NCBI RefSeq assembly: GCF_900109615.1
Contig: NZ_FOIX01000003.1
Coordinates: 372,001-436,000, forward strand
Direction of reading: 5' to 3'
DNA from: Kaistella antarctica
Lineage (GTDB): Bacteria > Bacteroidota > Bacteroidia > Flavobacteriales > Weeksellaceae
Length of the DNA: 64,000 bases
The stretch's first letter is position 1, and the number at the start of each line of letters is the position of its first letter. A program made the translations under genes and the position numbers. The notes under the pieces were generated by a model, which was not told the origin of the DNA, made no database searches, and saw nothing but the letters and a program-made list of their open reading frames with translations. Below are positions 3,240 to 51,888 of this stretch, in pieces.

Positions 3240-3446
3240 TTGTAAAAAAACAAAATGGATTTAGAAGCGGAATCCTGCAATAAGGATAGAAGTGAAAATC
3301 CTTTGGTGAGGAACGAACCAAAGATTGACTCAAATTAATATTTTTTTTATTTGAATCGTCGAAACTTGTACCTCGTTTTGTAACGAATAGCCCGACCCAA
3401 GCGGCTGGAAAAGCGTTGGAGAGGGGACTGCCCAAAAATAGAAAAT
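3240..3446. repeat. Structured repeat family B, copy 1
   Basis: This stretch ends just before lipB and is a diverged copy of the element at 23850-24045. Shared blocks, in order, are CCTGC-TAAGGAT, a GTGAAAATCC block, then TAGCCCGACCC, GGCTGGAAAAGCG, and a final GGG-CTGCCCAAAAATAG. Between blocks are variable hairpins: CTTTGG with CCAAAG, and TCAAAT with ATTTGA. AGCC and GGCT bracket the CGACCC block. Conserved cores with changing hairpins suggest a structured mobile or RNA-like module. It is likely within the lipB leader. Confidence 0.6.
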
Positions 3447-3449
3447 AAA

Positions 3450-4172
3450 ATGACAAGCACACAGAATAGAACTTTGCTGTTTCAGGACTTAGGGTTGATG
3501 GACTATGAACCGGCTTTTGAATTTCAGGAAAAATTGATGAAAGAAATCATCGATTTGAAACTGGAGAATCGCAACCGAACTGATGATGAACAGTCAGAAA
3601 CTCCGAATTATTTATTGTTTGTAGAGCATCCACATGTTTACACGATAGGGAAATCGGGAGACGAACATAATATGTTGGCGAATGCAAAAAAATTAGAAGA
3701 AATTAATGCGACTTTTGTAAAAACGAATCGGGGTGGAGATATTACGTATCACGGTTTCGGGCAGATTGTAGGATATCCGATTTTGGATTTGGATAATTTC
3801 AAATCTGACATTTTTTTGTATATGCGGAATTTGGAGGAAGTGATTATTCGCACGATTGCTGAATATGGTTTGACTGGCGAGAGAAGTGAAGGTGAAACGG
3901 GAGTTTGGCTAGATGTTGGAAAACCTTATGCTCGAAAGATTTGCGCGATGGGCGTGAAGACTTCGAAATGGGTAACCATGCACGGTTTGGCGTTGAATGT
4001 AAGTACGGATTTGCGCTATTTCGAATATATTATTGCGTGTGGAATTAAGGATAAAGGCGTGACTTCTTTGCAAAGAGAATTAGACAGAGAATTCTCAACA
4101 GACGAATTGGCTGAAATTAAAGAGAAAATCAAAAGATATTTCTGTGACGTTTTTGAAGCGCAGATTATTTAG
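3450..4172 (+). CDS. lipB: Octanoyltransferase (lipoate biosynthesis)
   Basis: LipB moves octanoyl from acyl carrier protein to the lipoyl-domain lysine of E2 and H proteins, the first step of lipoate synthesis. The protein has NRGGDITYHGFGQIVGYPI (residues 93-111), the lysine of the RKICAMG motif (Lys163) and the catalytic cysteine in IIACGIK (Cys197), all expected of the family. Length, 240 residues, is normal. The start is the ATG right after the family B repeat. An E2 component with a lipoyl domain, a natural client, lies nearby at 5402. lipA is not in the window. Confidence 0.93.
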   Translation: MTSTQNRTLLFQDLGLMDYEPAFEFQEKLMKEIIDLKLENRNRTDDEQSETPNYLLFVEHPHVYTIGKSGDEHNMLANAKKLEEINATFVKTNRGGDITYHGFGQIVGYPILDLDNFKSDIFLYMRNLEEVIIRTIAEYGLTGERSEGETGVWLDVGKPYARKICAMGVKTSKWVTMHGLALNVSTDLRYFEYIIACGIKDKGVTSLQRELDREFSTDELAEIKEKIKRYFCDVFEAQII

Positions 4173-6803: not shown

Positions 6804-6814
6804 AGGAGCTTAAT

Positions 6815-6883
6815 CCCGCTTTCCGCTATATCTTTTCCTCGTCATTCCTCCTCAGAAAAGGATGTCGCTACAATCTGGGCTAG
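6815..6883. repeat. Hairpin repeat family A, copy 2
   Basis: Outer arm CCCGCTTTCCGCTATATC and far arm GGATGTCGCTACAATCTGGGC enclose a CTTTTC/GAAAAG stem. Layout matches the other family A copies; the loop GTCATTCCTCCTC resembles that of the copies at 50885 and 51695. Located between the E2 terminator and the GNAT gene. Confidence 0.65.
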
Positions 6884-6950
6884 TTACGAGTGGATCTTCA
6901 AATTAAATTCTTTCAAAAACCTTAACTTTGATTTCTAAAATTTAAAAGAA

Positions 6951-19027: not shown

Positions 19028-19077
19028 ATTTTCCGCTCTGATTTTTAGGAGCGTCAAGAATTTAGCTTTCTCGAATA

Positions 19078-19152
19078 CCCGTCCGGCTGTCCACTGTATC
19101 TTTTTATTTTTTTCTGAAAAAATAAAAAGGATGTCGTTTCCATCCGGGCTAG
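19078..19152. repeat. Hairpin repeat family A, copy 3
   Basis: Located after sdaA. The central stem is CTTTTTATTTTTT with AAAAAATAAAAAG around CTG, a perfect 13-bp hairpin different in sequence from other copies but in the same place. Outer arms are CCCGTCCGGCTGTCCACTGT and GATGTCGTTTCCATCCGGGC. It may also end sdaA transcription. Confidence 0.7.
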
Positions 19153-19245
19153 AATAAAGATTTGCTTTTCTTCGAAAGAACTTTGAAAGAAGTGTCAATA
19201 TTATAGGAATTTTTCTAGATTAGTAAAAACTTAAATTCTAAACCA

Positions 19246-23844: not shown

Positions 23845-24045
23845 GGGTTCCACCTAGCTCTTCCCCTGCGTAAGGGATCGCAATGGAAAGCCCGGAAGGA
23901 GGCGCGATCCGCCTCGGCGGATCGCGGCGACTGAGGACTTGTAATGAAGAGCCCGACCCGATATGTGGCTGGAAAGCGCTGTTAGGGCTCGAAGCCCTAA
24001 CAGCGCTGAGCGATGGAAACGAGGGATACGCCCAAAATAGTAAGG
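23845..24045. repeat. Structured repeat family B, copy 2
   Basis: A GC-rich island in an AT-rich genome, ending about 30 bases before dnaG. Blocks in order: CCTGCGTAAGGGATCGCA, ATGGAAAGCCCGG, a perfect hairpin CGCGATCCGCC-TC-GGCGGATCGCG, GAGCCCGACCC, GTGGCTGGAAAGCG, a perfect hairpin CGCTGTTAGGGCT-CGA-AGCCCTAACAGCG, then GCGATGGAAACGAGGG and ATACGCCCAAAATAG. The copy at 3240-3446 shares the cores but has other hairpins. It resembles a mobile palindromic module with two interchangeable stem-loops. Confidence 0.7.
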
Positions 24046-24076: not shown

Positions 24077-26053
24077 ATGATTTCTAAGCAAACAATTGAT
24101 AAAATATTTTCTGCCATTCGGGTAGAGGAAATCGTCGGCGAATATGTGCAACTTAAAAGAGCAGGCTCGAATTTTAAAGGGTTAAGTCCGTTTCATGATG
24201 AGAAATCACCGAGTTTTGTGGTGTCGCCAAGTAAGCAAATTTGGAAAGATTTTTCATCTGGAAAAGGTGGAACTGCCATTTCATTTTTAATGGAAATTGA
24301 AAATTTCACGTACCCTGAAGCACTGCGGCATGCGGCTCAAAAGTATGGAATAGAAATAGAAGAGGACAAACGGGAACTTACGGAAGAGCAAAAGCAAGCG
24401 CAGACCGATAAAGAACTGCTTTACAAAATTCATGAGATCGCGAACGATTTTTTCCAGGAACAACTTTTCGAAACCGAAGAGGGACGGACAATCGCCTATT
24501 CTTATTTTAAAGAGCGCGAACTTAGGGATGATATTATTAAGAAATTCCAGTTGGGATATTCACCAGAACAGCGGAATGCTTTTACAGAATTTGCTTTAAA
24601 TAAAAGATATTCCAGCGATATTCTGGAGAAATCTGGACTGTCTATTTTTCCGGAAAATGCGCCAAACGGAATCGATCGTTTTCGGGAAAGGGTTTTATTT
24701 CCGATCCATAGTTTTTCAGGACGGGTTTTAGGATTTGGAGCGAGAATTCTGAAAAATAATATTAAAACTGCCAAATATTTAAATTCTCCCGAAACGGAAA
24801 TTTATCATAAATCAAGTGTCCTTTATGGTCTAAGTCAGGGAAAGCAAGCCATCTCCAAAGCAAACCTTTGTCTTTTAGTAGAAGGTTATATGGATGTTAT
24901 TGCGCTGCACCAAAGCGGAATTGAGAATGTCGTGGCCAGTTCTGGGACTGCTTTAACCGTCGATCAAATCAAGTTGATTAAAAGATTAACCGAAAACGTA
25001 ACCATTCTTTTCGATGGAGATCCAGCTGGAATTAAAGCGAGTTTTAGAAGTATCGATTTGTTGCTCGCCGAAGAAATGAATATTCGGATTTTACTTTTTC
25101 CAGATGGCGATGATCCTGATTCTTTTTCAAGAAAACATCCGCAAGATTATGTGGAAGACTTTATAAAAACGCAGGCTAAAGATTTCATCGATTTCAAAGC
25201 AGAAATTTTATTAAAAGAAGCGGGCGATGATCCCATTAAGAAAGCGGAATCTATTCGGGATATCGTAAAGTCGGTGGCGTTTGTGAAGAATGCTTTAAAG
25301 CAGGAAGTTTATTTAAAGGAAGTTGCCAATAAATTTGGCATTTCAGAACAATCGCTTTTTAATGAATTGAATGTTCAGAAACAACTTCAAAGTCAACAAT
25401 TCTCGCCGCAACAAAGAGCCGAGCCGCAGCTAAAGACGAAACTTGAAATCGTTCCATTAAGCACCATTTCTGTAAATCCATTATTGGAGCTGGAGGAGAA
25501 ATTAGTGAAACACATGCTCAACTTCGGAGATCGTATTTTAGAAAAATCGCATGCGGATAATCAGCCTTTTAAAATTACGGTTATTGAGGAGATTATAAGT
25601 CACTTTAATGAAGATGATTACGAGCCACAATCGCCTATTAATCAGAAAATAATCGAAGAATTAAAAATTGGTTTGGCGAATAATGAGATTATACAAAGCA
25701 ATTTTTTCTTAACTTTAATGGATGAAACCATTGTCTCTAAAGTTTCAAGCGCCATTCTGGAAGACGAAGAACTGAGTAACTGGGAAAAAAGCAATATTTT
25801 CCCACCTAAACCCGGTGAAAAATTAGAGGCAGAAATTGAGGATGATATTCTGATTCATAAAAGTCATTTCATTGAAAAAATGATTTATGATATTGTCAGA
25901 AATTTAGATGCAGTGCGGGATGAAAAGCCAGATGAGTATTATGAACTGGTTAAAAGAATCATGATTTTAAAAAGTCTTTTAAATGAAATCAATATGAAAT
26001 TAAACCGACAACTGACAAAAGGGCATAGTTATTTTAAGGAACAGAAATTGTAA
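24077..26053 (+). CDS. dnaG: DNA primase with degenerate zinc-ribbon
   Basis: Synthesises RNA primers at the replication fork. The 658-residue protein keeps the CHC2-domain scaffold at its N-terminus, FKGLSPFHDEKSPSFVVSPSKQIWKDFSSGKGG (28 to about 66), but the zinc cysteines are replaced (GLSPFH for GLCPFH, DFSSGKGG for a C-GCG type turn); only the His remains. The TOPRIM core is LCLLVEGYMDVIALHQSGIENVVASSGTALT with later LFDGDPAGIKASFRSIDLLL. A C-terminal DnaB-binding-like part follows. It precedes clpP by 25 bases. Confidence 0.93.
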   Translation: MISKQTIDKIFSAIRVEEIVGEYVQLKRAGSNFKGLSPFHDEKSPSFVVSPSKQIWKDFSSGKGGTAISFLMEIENFTYPEALRHAAQKYGIEIEEDKRELTEEQKQAQTDKELLYKIHEIANDFFQEQLFETEEGRTIAYSYFKERELRDDIIKKFQLGYSPEQRNAFTEFALNKRYSSDILEKSGLSIFPENAPNGIDRFRERVLFPIHSFSGRVLGFGARILKNNIKTAKYLNSPETEIYHKSSVLYGLSQGKQAISKANLCLLVEGYMDVIALHQSGIENVVASSGTALTVDQIKLIKRLTENVTILFDGDPAGIKASFRSIDLLLAEEMNIRILLFPDGDDPDSFSRKHPQDYVEDFIKTQAKDFIDFKAEILLKEAGDDPIKKAESIRDIVKSVAFVKNALKQEVYLKEVANKFGISEQSLFNELNVQKQLQSQQFSPQQRAEPQLKTKLEIVPLSTISVNPLLELEEKLVKHMLNFGDRILEKSHADNQPFKITVIEEIISHFNEDDYEPQSPINQKIIEELKIGLANNEIIQSNFFLTLMDETIVSKVSSAILEDEELSNWEKSNIFPPKPGEKLEAEIEDDILIHKSHFIEKMIYDIVRNLDAVRDEKPDEYYELVKRIMILKSLLNEINMKLNRQLTKGHSYFKEQKL

Positions 26054-50830: not shown

Positions 50831-51130
50831 CTAGTAGTGCTTTTTGCTGGGAGCAACCTTATTTTTGCTTCTTTCAAAACCAGTCACGCTCTCCACTATA
50901 TCTTTTTTTCGTCGTGCCTCCTCAAAAAAGGATGCCGTTGCGATCGTGGCTAAAACTTCTTCCTAGCTTTCTTTCAAAATTATATTGGCAAATATTATTG
51001 CGGCAAATAACTACGGTTGCGTTTGTAGTTGACGAAAAAACTGTTTTGGTTGAAATAGAAAATTAATGCTCATTTTTCTTGCTGCATCTGCTGGTTTGGA
51101 AAAAATAACTAACTTTCCAAAAAAGAAAAT
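50831..51130. repeat. Gap with hairpin repeat family A, copy 4
   Basis: The 300-base gap holds a family A copy at 50885-50952: CACGCTCTCCACTATATC, CTTTTTTTCG loop and GGATGCCGTTGCGATCGTGGC. Sequence on its left (GGAGCAA near 50850, CTTCTTTCAAAACCAG) also aligns loosely with the far side of the inverted copy at 51695-51764, so the repeat may be longer than its core. The rest, 50960-51130, shows no gene; a frame that runs through it is a read-through of the repeat. Confidence 0.6.
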
Positions 51131-51370: not shown

Positions 51371-51888
51371 ATTCAAGTTGCTAAAGCTGAATCTGCTTTA
51401 AGCGCGATTTTTATCGATCTCAGAAACGTACTGAATAACATACCACCATTAGCCTCTATCTTTTTTCTGAAGATAAATATTATTATAAATTTTTCCAGTT
51501 GATATAAACTTGATTCCAGAGAAATTACATCTCTGTGGAAATAGCAATGTAGTTTTTAAATCGTTCCGTAGGAACGCTATCCTCCTAGAAGATTTTTTTA
51601 TAAGCGCATAGACTAGAAAGATGACTAATCTTTCACAAATTCTAATTAATAGGTTACTCTCCGAAAATCTTTGAAATAGAAAATTCTTGTCTTTTAGCCC
51701 CGACTGAAGCGACATCCTTTTTTGAGGAGGCACGACGAAAAAAAGATACAGCGGAAGGCGGGTGGAGTCCTTGATGAAAACGAAAATCTTTTTGCTCCTC
51801 AAAACCACTAAATCTCCCCAATTTCGACCCGTTTTCATTTGGTCAACCCTGCTAAAATTACCTATCTTTACGCAAAATTTTACGCAAA
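51371..51888. repeat. Repeat island: GTTCC-GGAAC element and family A copy 5
   Basis: A 518-base gap with no supported gene. At 51510-51600 is a palindromic stretch: CCAGAGA with TCTCTGTGG around AATTACA, then CGTTCCGTAGGAACG; by recollection this last string recurs widely in Bacteroidetes spacers. At 51695-51764 is family A copy 5, inverted relative to copy 4: TAGCCCCGACTGAAGCGAC, CCTTTTTTG paired with CGAAAAAAAG, then GCGGAAGGCGGG. A menB -7-like element TATCTTTA is at 51863-51870. Confidence 0.6.

Follow-up and report, generated by a model that had tools for sequence, protein, structure and literature searches.

Two structured repeats upstream of lipB and dnaG in Kaistella antarctica belong to an extended Flavo-1 family with a three-way junction fold

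Introduction

The window analysed here, 64,000 nucleotides of a Kaistella antarctica contig (NZ_FOIX01000003.1, forward-strand positions 372,001 to 436,000), contains two stretches, 3240-3446 upstream of lipB and 23845-24045 upstream of dnaG, that had been read as diverged copies of one repeat. That reading (the original prediction, from which the two gene names are taken over) held that they share the same blocks in the same order and are either a mobile palindromic module or a structured RNA, for which it knew no name. These loci raise the question of what the element is, how it came to lie before two unrelated genes, and what would keep its fold.

Results and Discussion

Assignment of the two stretches to Flavo-1

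The blocks named in the original prediction were present in both stretches and in the order described, within narrower limits than had been drawn (Table 1). R2, a covariance model built from 33 copies with neither window copy among them, found both elements (E 6.9e-12 for copy 1, before lipB, and 2.7e-13 for copy 2, before dnaG); the family claim thus passed an independent check and goes beyond chance similarity. The search for further genomic copies was run with R1, a first covariance model trained on an alignment of 8 own-genome copies; within the same genome it matched 23 places at E < 0.01, rising to 32 at E ≤ 1 (training copies included), of which L039 (a duplicate of L011) and L041 and L042 (doubtful) were dropped from the later copy set.

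A name for this family does exist, namely Flavo-1 (RF01705), although its function is unexplained. Against RF01705 the K. antarctica genome gave 64 matches at E ≤ 0.01, 35 of them above the gathering cut-off (42 bits, the detection threshold). Both window copies scored below this cut-off, at 21.9 bits (E 0.014) for copy 1 and 31.0 bits (E 4.7e-5) for copy 2, and at the default threshold Rfam reported neither stretch while assigning four other places in the window to Flavo-1. B-type sister copies in the same genome reached 52-65 bits (e.g. 64.9 and 63.3) and L091, a Pedobacter sister element, 69 bits; in the Rfam alignments of both window copies and of L091, the core letters and core pairs of Flavo-1 occurred in order. 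Since the sister B-type copies and L091 pass the cut-off, and R2 matches, both stretches are almost certainly diverged members of Flavo-1, and they belong to its GCNNN/NNNGCCC subfamily. The likeness to the published family extends to the core sequence and its pairs (GAUxG.A..GGA / GAU.G.A..GGAyAGC), to its occurrence in Bacteroidota and to its unexplained function (PMC2864571). The perfect stems of 11 and 13 bp described for copy 2 were there, with other lengths: P2 folds as 10 bp and the palindrome stem as 15 bp.

Table 1. Flavo-1 elements in the window and the parts of the two extended copies.
Feature	Position	Strand	Remarks
Extended (B-type) Flavo-1, copy 1, upstream of lipB	3277..3433	+	R2 3274-3436, 52.4 bits; Rfam below cut-off
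Copy 1 P1 5' arm GCAAT	3277..3281	+	3' arm ACTGC at 3427-3431, one A.C mismatch
Copy 1 P2 arm	3297..3379	+	hairpin CTTTGGT..ACCAAAG plus ~46 nt insertion
Copy 1 AGCCCGACCC block and P3 slot	3389..3426	+	
Flavo-1, A-type	6805..6885	-	Rfam 57.1 bits for 6808-6885; GCTCC just beyond Rfam end, no P3 hairpin
Flavo-1, A-type, complete to GCTCC	19048..19154	-	Rfam 69.8 bits (19076-19154); R2 19061-19155
Extended (B-type) Flavo-1, copy 2, upstream of dnaG	23868..24033	+	R2 23865-24036, 57.7 bits; Rfam below cut-off
Copy 2 P1 5' arm GCGTA	23868..23872	+	pairs with TACGC at 24027-24031
Copy 2 P2 arm (AAGCCC .. GAGGACTT) with hairpin tip	23888..23940	+	
Copy 2 33-bp palindrome AGCGCTGTTAGGGCT-CGA-AGCCCTAACAGCGCT, in P3 slot	23975..24007	+	independent repeat, also solitary
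Flavo-1, A-type, complete to GCTCC	50850..50955	-	Rfam 61 bits (50878-50955); R2 50862-50953
Flavo-1, A-type, complete to GCTCC	51692..51798	+	Rfam 55.6 bits (51692-51769)

Flavo-1 continues beyond the catalogued model

Thirty own-genome Flavo-1 loci were inspected, with L174, L176 and L193 (B-type), L177 (hybrid) and L178 (contig end) set aside. A GCTCC-like closing segment lay 3' of the Rfam end, facing the 5' TAGC, in 24 of the 25 A-type loci; the expression used for it was loose, with chance matches expected in some windows, and the stricter figure is that for exact GCTCC, found in 18 of those loci (n = 25). One A-type locus (L169) carried a matched double change, TACC/GGTCC, and in five the P3 hairpin was replaced by a short linker. 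R2, a B-type model, aligned two A-type copies of the window over its full length, from first to last position. Flavo-1 is thus longer than catalogued: the Rfam model covers the core and leaves its flanks unpaired, whereas the full element also has P1, P3 and a conserved 3' end (GCTCC or GCCC). The passages on the family in three published accounts (PMC2864571, PMC9723704, PMC9029176) mention neither a closing stem nor a second hairpin, and say nothing of dispersal.

The complete element folds as a three-way junction

Complete Flavo-1 is a three-way junction in which an outer stem, P1, surrounds the core arm and a second hairpin slot, P3. P1 closes the element as GCNNN/NNNGC, followed by CC, and one arm consists of P1b, a 2-bp middle helix and P2 with two 3x3 purine loops (GNA and GGA on either side), which are conserved and mutually non-complementary. 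Covariation had been named in the original prediction as the check on such a fold, and both P1 and the pair X-Y were found to covary across copies. With a P1-free pattern, an exact P1 complement occurred in 72 of the 80 copies among the matches listed; within the same matches, 36 copies had a non-majority 5' arm, of which 29 carried their own complement and 4 that of the majority. A P1-blind set of 132 distinct copies was assembled from two pattern searches (for one of these from the matches listed, and with a site in G641 not included). Here the exact P1 complement was present in 125 copies and X-Y was Watson-Crick in 131 (A-T 79, T-A 51, G-C 1, T.T 1). In the 110 anchored copies, 327 of the 330 cells for the variable P1 pairs (three per copy) were Watson-Crick. 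The second P1-blind pattern, run on 395 genomes, hit 82 sites in 38 of them, and its reversed control 2.

In a mixed set of 155 copies, X-Y was Watson-Crick in 151, and of the two middle-helix pairs one was so in 154 and the other in 148, with a further 1 and 5 G.T. P1 was Watson-Crick in 673 of 680 cells of the 136 anchored copies, figures to be read in light of the fact that the expression was P1-free but some of the loci had been retrieved through R1 or R2, models that score P1 favourably, and that the GC anchor favours the first two P1 pairs. Four of the 19 unanchored copies showed a further double change, GGGTT..AACCC. A pair count on A3, a set of 33 rows, gave 99.4% paired compared to at most 51.7% in slid controls; its P1 counts are biased, as an exact P1 complement had been the basis for selecting 30 of the rows. 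Of the rows flagged as poor in one P1-free copy set, three proved to be misanchored and one was truncated. Quasi-palindrome template switching was considered as a source of the covariation and is not favoured, because it would erase the conserved non-complementary GNA/GGA loops.

Strand of folding

Mismatch counts differed between the strands, with 12 G.T vs 0 A.C among the 1610 pairs counted in the mixed set, and 5 vs 0 in the P1-blind set. In folded P3 hairpins, G.U made up 28/514 pairs on the + strand vs 6/477 on its complement, and whole elements were more stable on the + strand in 122 of 127 cases; P2 tips showed no strand preference (50/1208 vs 68/1332). Copy 1, with one A.C in P1, falls outside the counted sets owing to its AAGGAT, and two lipB orthologs carry G.T in P1. 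Overall, these data favour, if less firmly, a single folding strand, the + strand. The stems of 20 tRNAs from the same loci contained 31 G.T among 436 pairs, more than the conserved Flavo-1 helices, so that single-stranded DNA is possible alongside RNA.

A bias towards one replication strand was also considered and dropped. The best two-segment splits of element strands in five complete genomes gave p values of 0.019, 0.05, 0.26, 0.50 and 0.89 (150 listed of 207 matches), and GC skew sampled at 20 points revealed, by eye, no leading or lagging preference in G198 (~13 v 16) or G343 (~24 v 27); the skew of G331, sampled as well, was too weak for use.

Dispersal with sharp borders

R2 matches were found in at least 62 of 395 Bacteroidota genomes (with the best nine candidates per genome scored), one genome scored in full gave 68 at E ≤ 0.01, and the 80 pattern loci among the matches listed all bore Bacteroidota names. 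In one Aquimarina genome, 21 copies were a median of 90% alike with flanks at the 50% baseline, and a Pedobacter copy was 96.7% alike to one from F. branchiophilum, again with unrelated flanks. Some of this pattern might also arise from gene conversion among copies, an explanation that scarcely works between orders where the flanks are unrelated. The borders were sharp in 134 copies: GC is preceded by pyrimidines, GCCC is in most cases followed by A or T, and beyond these the sequence is background. No target site duplication stood out, as at most 4 of 126 copies agreed for k = 4-8 at the best offsets shown. The border, flank-similarity and target-duplication analyses all concern copies with an exact P1 complement.

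The search for a parent element covered 75 five-prime halves: 10 had no strict 3' half within 120 nt, none of these showed an ORF-bearing insert by eye, and neither an autonomous relative nor an enzyme was found near the 75 halves. Carriage by phages or plasmids was rejected. Viral contigs gave no match to one exact pattern, phage records gave no blastn match at E 1e-3, and the two plasmid matches were weak, one from Capnocytophaga covering 40% of the query (its 3' half) and one from Paraclostridium bifermentans with 76.6% identity over 79% of the query. A Flavo-1-like sequence, GTTAGGGATTGTAGTGGAAATCC.. ..GATTGGAACGAAAAGCCCGA, was seen at ~4001-4070 of L376, a plasmid filed under the latter species, which lies outside Bacteroidota.

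Elements at lipB and dnaG appear to be compensated in place

The two sites were compared across the genus in the best 30 loci per gene, drawn from the 36 genomes matched for each, own genome included. R1 found the element in 20 lipB and 13 dnaG loci, and found none in the other 10 and 17. At the lipB site X-Y was A-T in 9, C-G in 5, T-A in 5 and C.T in 1, and at the dnaG site C-G in 9, A-T in 2 and T-A in 2; one of the three Watson-Crick pairs was thus present in 32 of 33 orthologs. The P1 5' arm at lipB was GCAAT in all 20 despite differing P2 contents, with an exact complement in 17 and one imperfect pair in each of the remaining three, and at dnaG it was GCGTA in 11, GCGCG in 1 and GCGTT in 1, each with its own complement. 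Because P1 is specific to each site while X-Y varies, the matched X-Y changes look like point changes that arose in place, and not like replacement of the element. A plain parasite would not usually show compensation of this kind, which points to a role at the level of the host.

Losses, in turn, look like decay through internal deletions or remnants: L261 and L262 keep just the 3' end, L257 and L258 seemingly a P3 piece (by eye), and L378 lost the site through an internal deletion. When six own-genome copies were followed into eight relatives, R1 matched at E < 1e-5 in 18 of the 30 loci examined, and these 30 loci included no precise empty site. The proposal of a mobile palindromic module or a structured RNA is therefore largely supported by the covariation, the many copies, the swapped tips and the dispersal, but lacks a clean empty site.

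The fold is kept whatever the direction of neighbouring genes

Among 136 copies with both neighbours, 36 lay in sense, 46 in antisense, 39 in convergent and 15 in divergent positions. Sense and antisense did not differ (p 0.32), and divergent intergenic regions were under-used. Within the P1-blind set, an intact P1 together with an intact X-Y was seen in 25/26 copies in sense, 36/39 in antisense, 32/34 in convergent and 13/14 in divergent positions. The observation that both copies end just before a + strand start codon is correct for the window (lipB ATG at 3450, dnaG ATG at 24077); as a rule, the tie to a following start codon that this implied fails, since the downstream gene was co-directional in 51 of the 136. 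Flavo-1 is indifferent to gene direction, and its fold is kept whatever the neighbours do.

No TAnnTTTG box was enriched at a fixed distance in the 60 nt upstream of the same 134 copies used for the borders. At individual sites, inspected by eye, several lipB orthologs have a promoter-like TATAAATTTGC upstream of the element (which in the window stands 16 nt before the ATG); the dnaG loci, whether occupied or empty, share a promoter-like TATTTTTAC, which is found between the element and the ATG. Weinberg et al. tabled Flavo-1 in 2010 as a likely Bacteroidetes RNA that is neither cis-regulatory nor a switch (PMC2864571, as tabled). In the passages on Flavo-1 of an F. psychrophilum transcriptome study, matches lie sense or antisense alike and many outside transcribed regions, several 5' transcribed regions overlap matches, and a clue to the role is lacking (PMC9723704). 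A review counts Flavo-1 as one of the sRNA families with the most copies in bacteria, and the passage assigns it no function (PMC9029176).

Possible origin and retention of Flavo-1

We favour the explanation that Flavo-1 is a non-autonomous element that disperses as one folded strand and is then kept in place by selection on its fold, and give it about an even chance of being right. The + strand would fold, as RNA or single-stranded DNA, and be recognised via the two purine loops, presumably by a protein; the element would spread in trans as this folded strand, without target duplication, moved by an enzyme encoded elsewhere, and landed copies would be retained by selection on the fold. The dispersal, sharp ends, lack of a promoter and gene-direction indifference fit a non-autonomous element spreading as a folded strand, and the compensation in place fits selection on landed copies. 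The main rival, which we consider rather unlikely, is that each copy is kept for its transcript, as a protein-binding hairpin that stabilises or processes its mRNA or an antisense RNA. Better folding on the + strand, compensation at lipB and dnaG, the promoter-like sequence upstream of the lipB element together with its proximity to the ATG, and the overlaps with 5' transcribed regions (PMC9723704) are all consistent with such a role; however, sense is not preferred over antisense (nor in the P1-blind set, 26 v 39) and integrity is similar in both, the published matches include many outside transcribed regions, and at dnaG the promoter-like sequence sits beyond the element. We also considered stand-alone small RNA genes with their own promoters: Rfam types Flavo-1 as 'Gene; sRNA' and the copies are multiple, intergenic and structured, but the lack of an enriched upstream box and the many published matches outside transcribed regions make this reading quite improbable.

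If folded single-stranded DNA is the mobile form, mobilisation of a REP-like element through a Y1 (IS200/RAYT) transposase would account for the stabler strand, the absence of target duplications and the many intergenic copies, and a Y1_Tnp match was present in 51 of 62 element-bearing genomes vs 220 of 333 others (compared by hand). Four element-rich genomes (G084, G202, G218 and G290, with at least 8 or 9 matches each) nevertheless had no Y1_Tnp match, and the one adjacent Y1_Tnp inspected (G296) was bracketed by its own, different palindrome; we regard this mover as unlikely. The rarity of G.T (12 of 1610 pairs vs 31 of 436 in tRNAs of the same loci), the P2 tips without strand preference and the gene-direction indifference would also suit a double-stranded palindrome or cruciform, serving as a protein or recombination site with no single-strand function. 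This is very improbable given strand-specific G.T (12 vs 0 A.C; P3 28 vs 6), purine loops that are conserved and non-complementary, and no link to the replication strand in G198 and G343. We give equally little credence to a cis-regulatory leader of lipB and dnaG: both copies do precede start codons and occur in much of the genus, but the same element stands before, behind and against unrelated genes and was not found in 10 of 30 lipB and 17 of 30 dnaG loci.

Compared to known systems, Flavo-1 resembles REP/BIME repeats with their RAYT transposases (PMC2817692, compared from one passage) in its many intergenic copies and one-strand hairpins, and differs in its three-way junction with purine loops, its length of ~80-180 nt and the lack of a consistent Y1 transposase, as seen in the four element-rich genomes named above. 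MITEs are short, non-autonomous, dispersed elements with sharp ends, and Flavo-1 is like them in these respects; unlike them, it has no target duplication and no parent transposon was found, and its end arms vary between copies yet match each other. In integron attC sites a single strand folds into a conserved structure with variable tips, as Flavo-1 would, but these have RYYYAAC/GTTRRRY core sites, whereas Flavo-1 has no fixed AAC/GTT core and its P1 arms vary (GCAAT, GCATG, GCGCG and others). With its full boundaries, closing stem, second hairpin, gene-direction indifference and in-place compensation described, Flavo-1 is open to probing, deletion and pull-down. If mobile, it would represent a new way of spread for a folded strand; if retained as RNA, it would imply an unknown partner.

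Palindromes are exchanged at the P2 and P3 tips

The tips of P2 and P3 are sockets at which unrelated palindromes are exchanged. Identical P2 tips were shared across species, in one case between Flavobacterium and Pedobacter, and across the genus the P2 of the lipB site held a T/A hairpin, GGCGCGAGCGAAGCGAGCGCC-type palindromes or GC-rich palindromes, depending on the species. The 33-bp palindrome of the dnaG copy also occurred in P3 of the lipB orthologs L230 and L233, and solitary elsewhere in the genome. We tentatively suggest that Flavo-1 is a Bacteroidota class of mobile elements that travel as a folded single strand, needing neither a known transposase nor target duplication, with tips acting as landing sockets for palindromes, retained by their hosts together with the fold, and not primarily a small RNA gene; in this full form the proposal is possible, though we would not expect all of it to hold.

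Several further arrangements were seen. The 33-bp palindrome, AGCGCTGTTAGRGCT..AGCYCTAACAGCGCT, is an independent intergenic repeat, present besides the window in L005, L007 and L008 (one slightly imperfect). Palindromes of the GGCGCGAGCGAAGCGAGCGCC type occupy the P2 slot and also lie free in intergenic DNA throughout the genus (L228, L229, L273, L274 and L284; upstream of lipB or dnaG). The ~46-nt P2 insertion of copy 1 is a module common to L011, L012 and L014, of ATTTGAATCGTCGAA type. These three loci, with L043-L045, form a further subfamily, GCNAC-CCGACTT.. ..AAGTNGCC, apparently without P3. In the Flavobacterium copies L105, L122 and L146, the 5' GGGAT is separated from the GTGGAAATCC block by an extra insert that looks like a hairpin (GTGAAYTTCRTTTG or a related sequence); in L105 and L146 an insert was noted behind GGGATTA. 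At L468 (1862-2323), ~250 bp from a Flavo-1 element, a Y1 transposase gene is bracketed by its own ACCCAAATGTCATCCCTACGGGA-type palindrome in a RAYT-REP-like arrangement. In L341, the P2 slot holds a long nested inverted repeat, CCGCACATAAA..TTTATGTGCGG, which encloses a GAGATTGCTTCG..CTCGCAATGA repeat.
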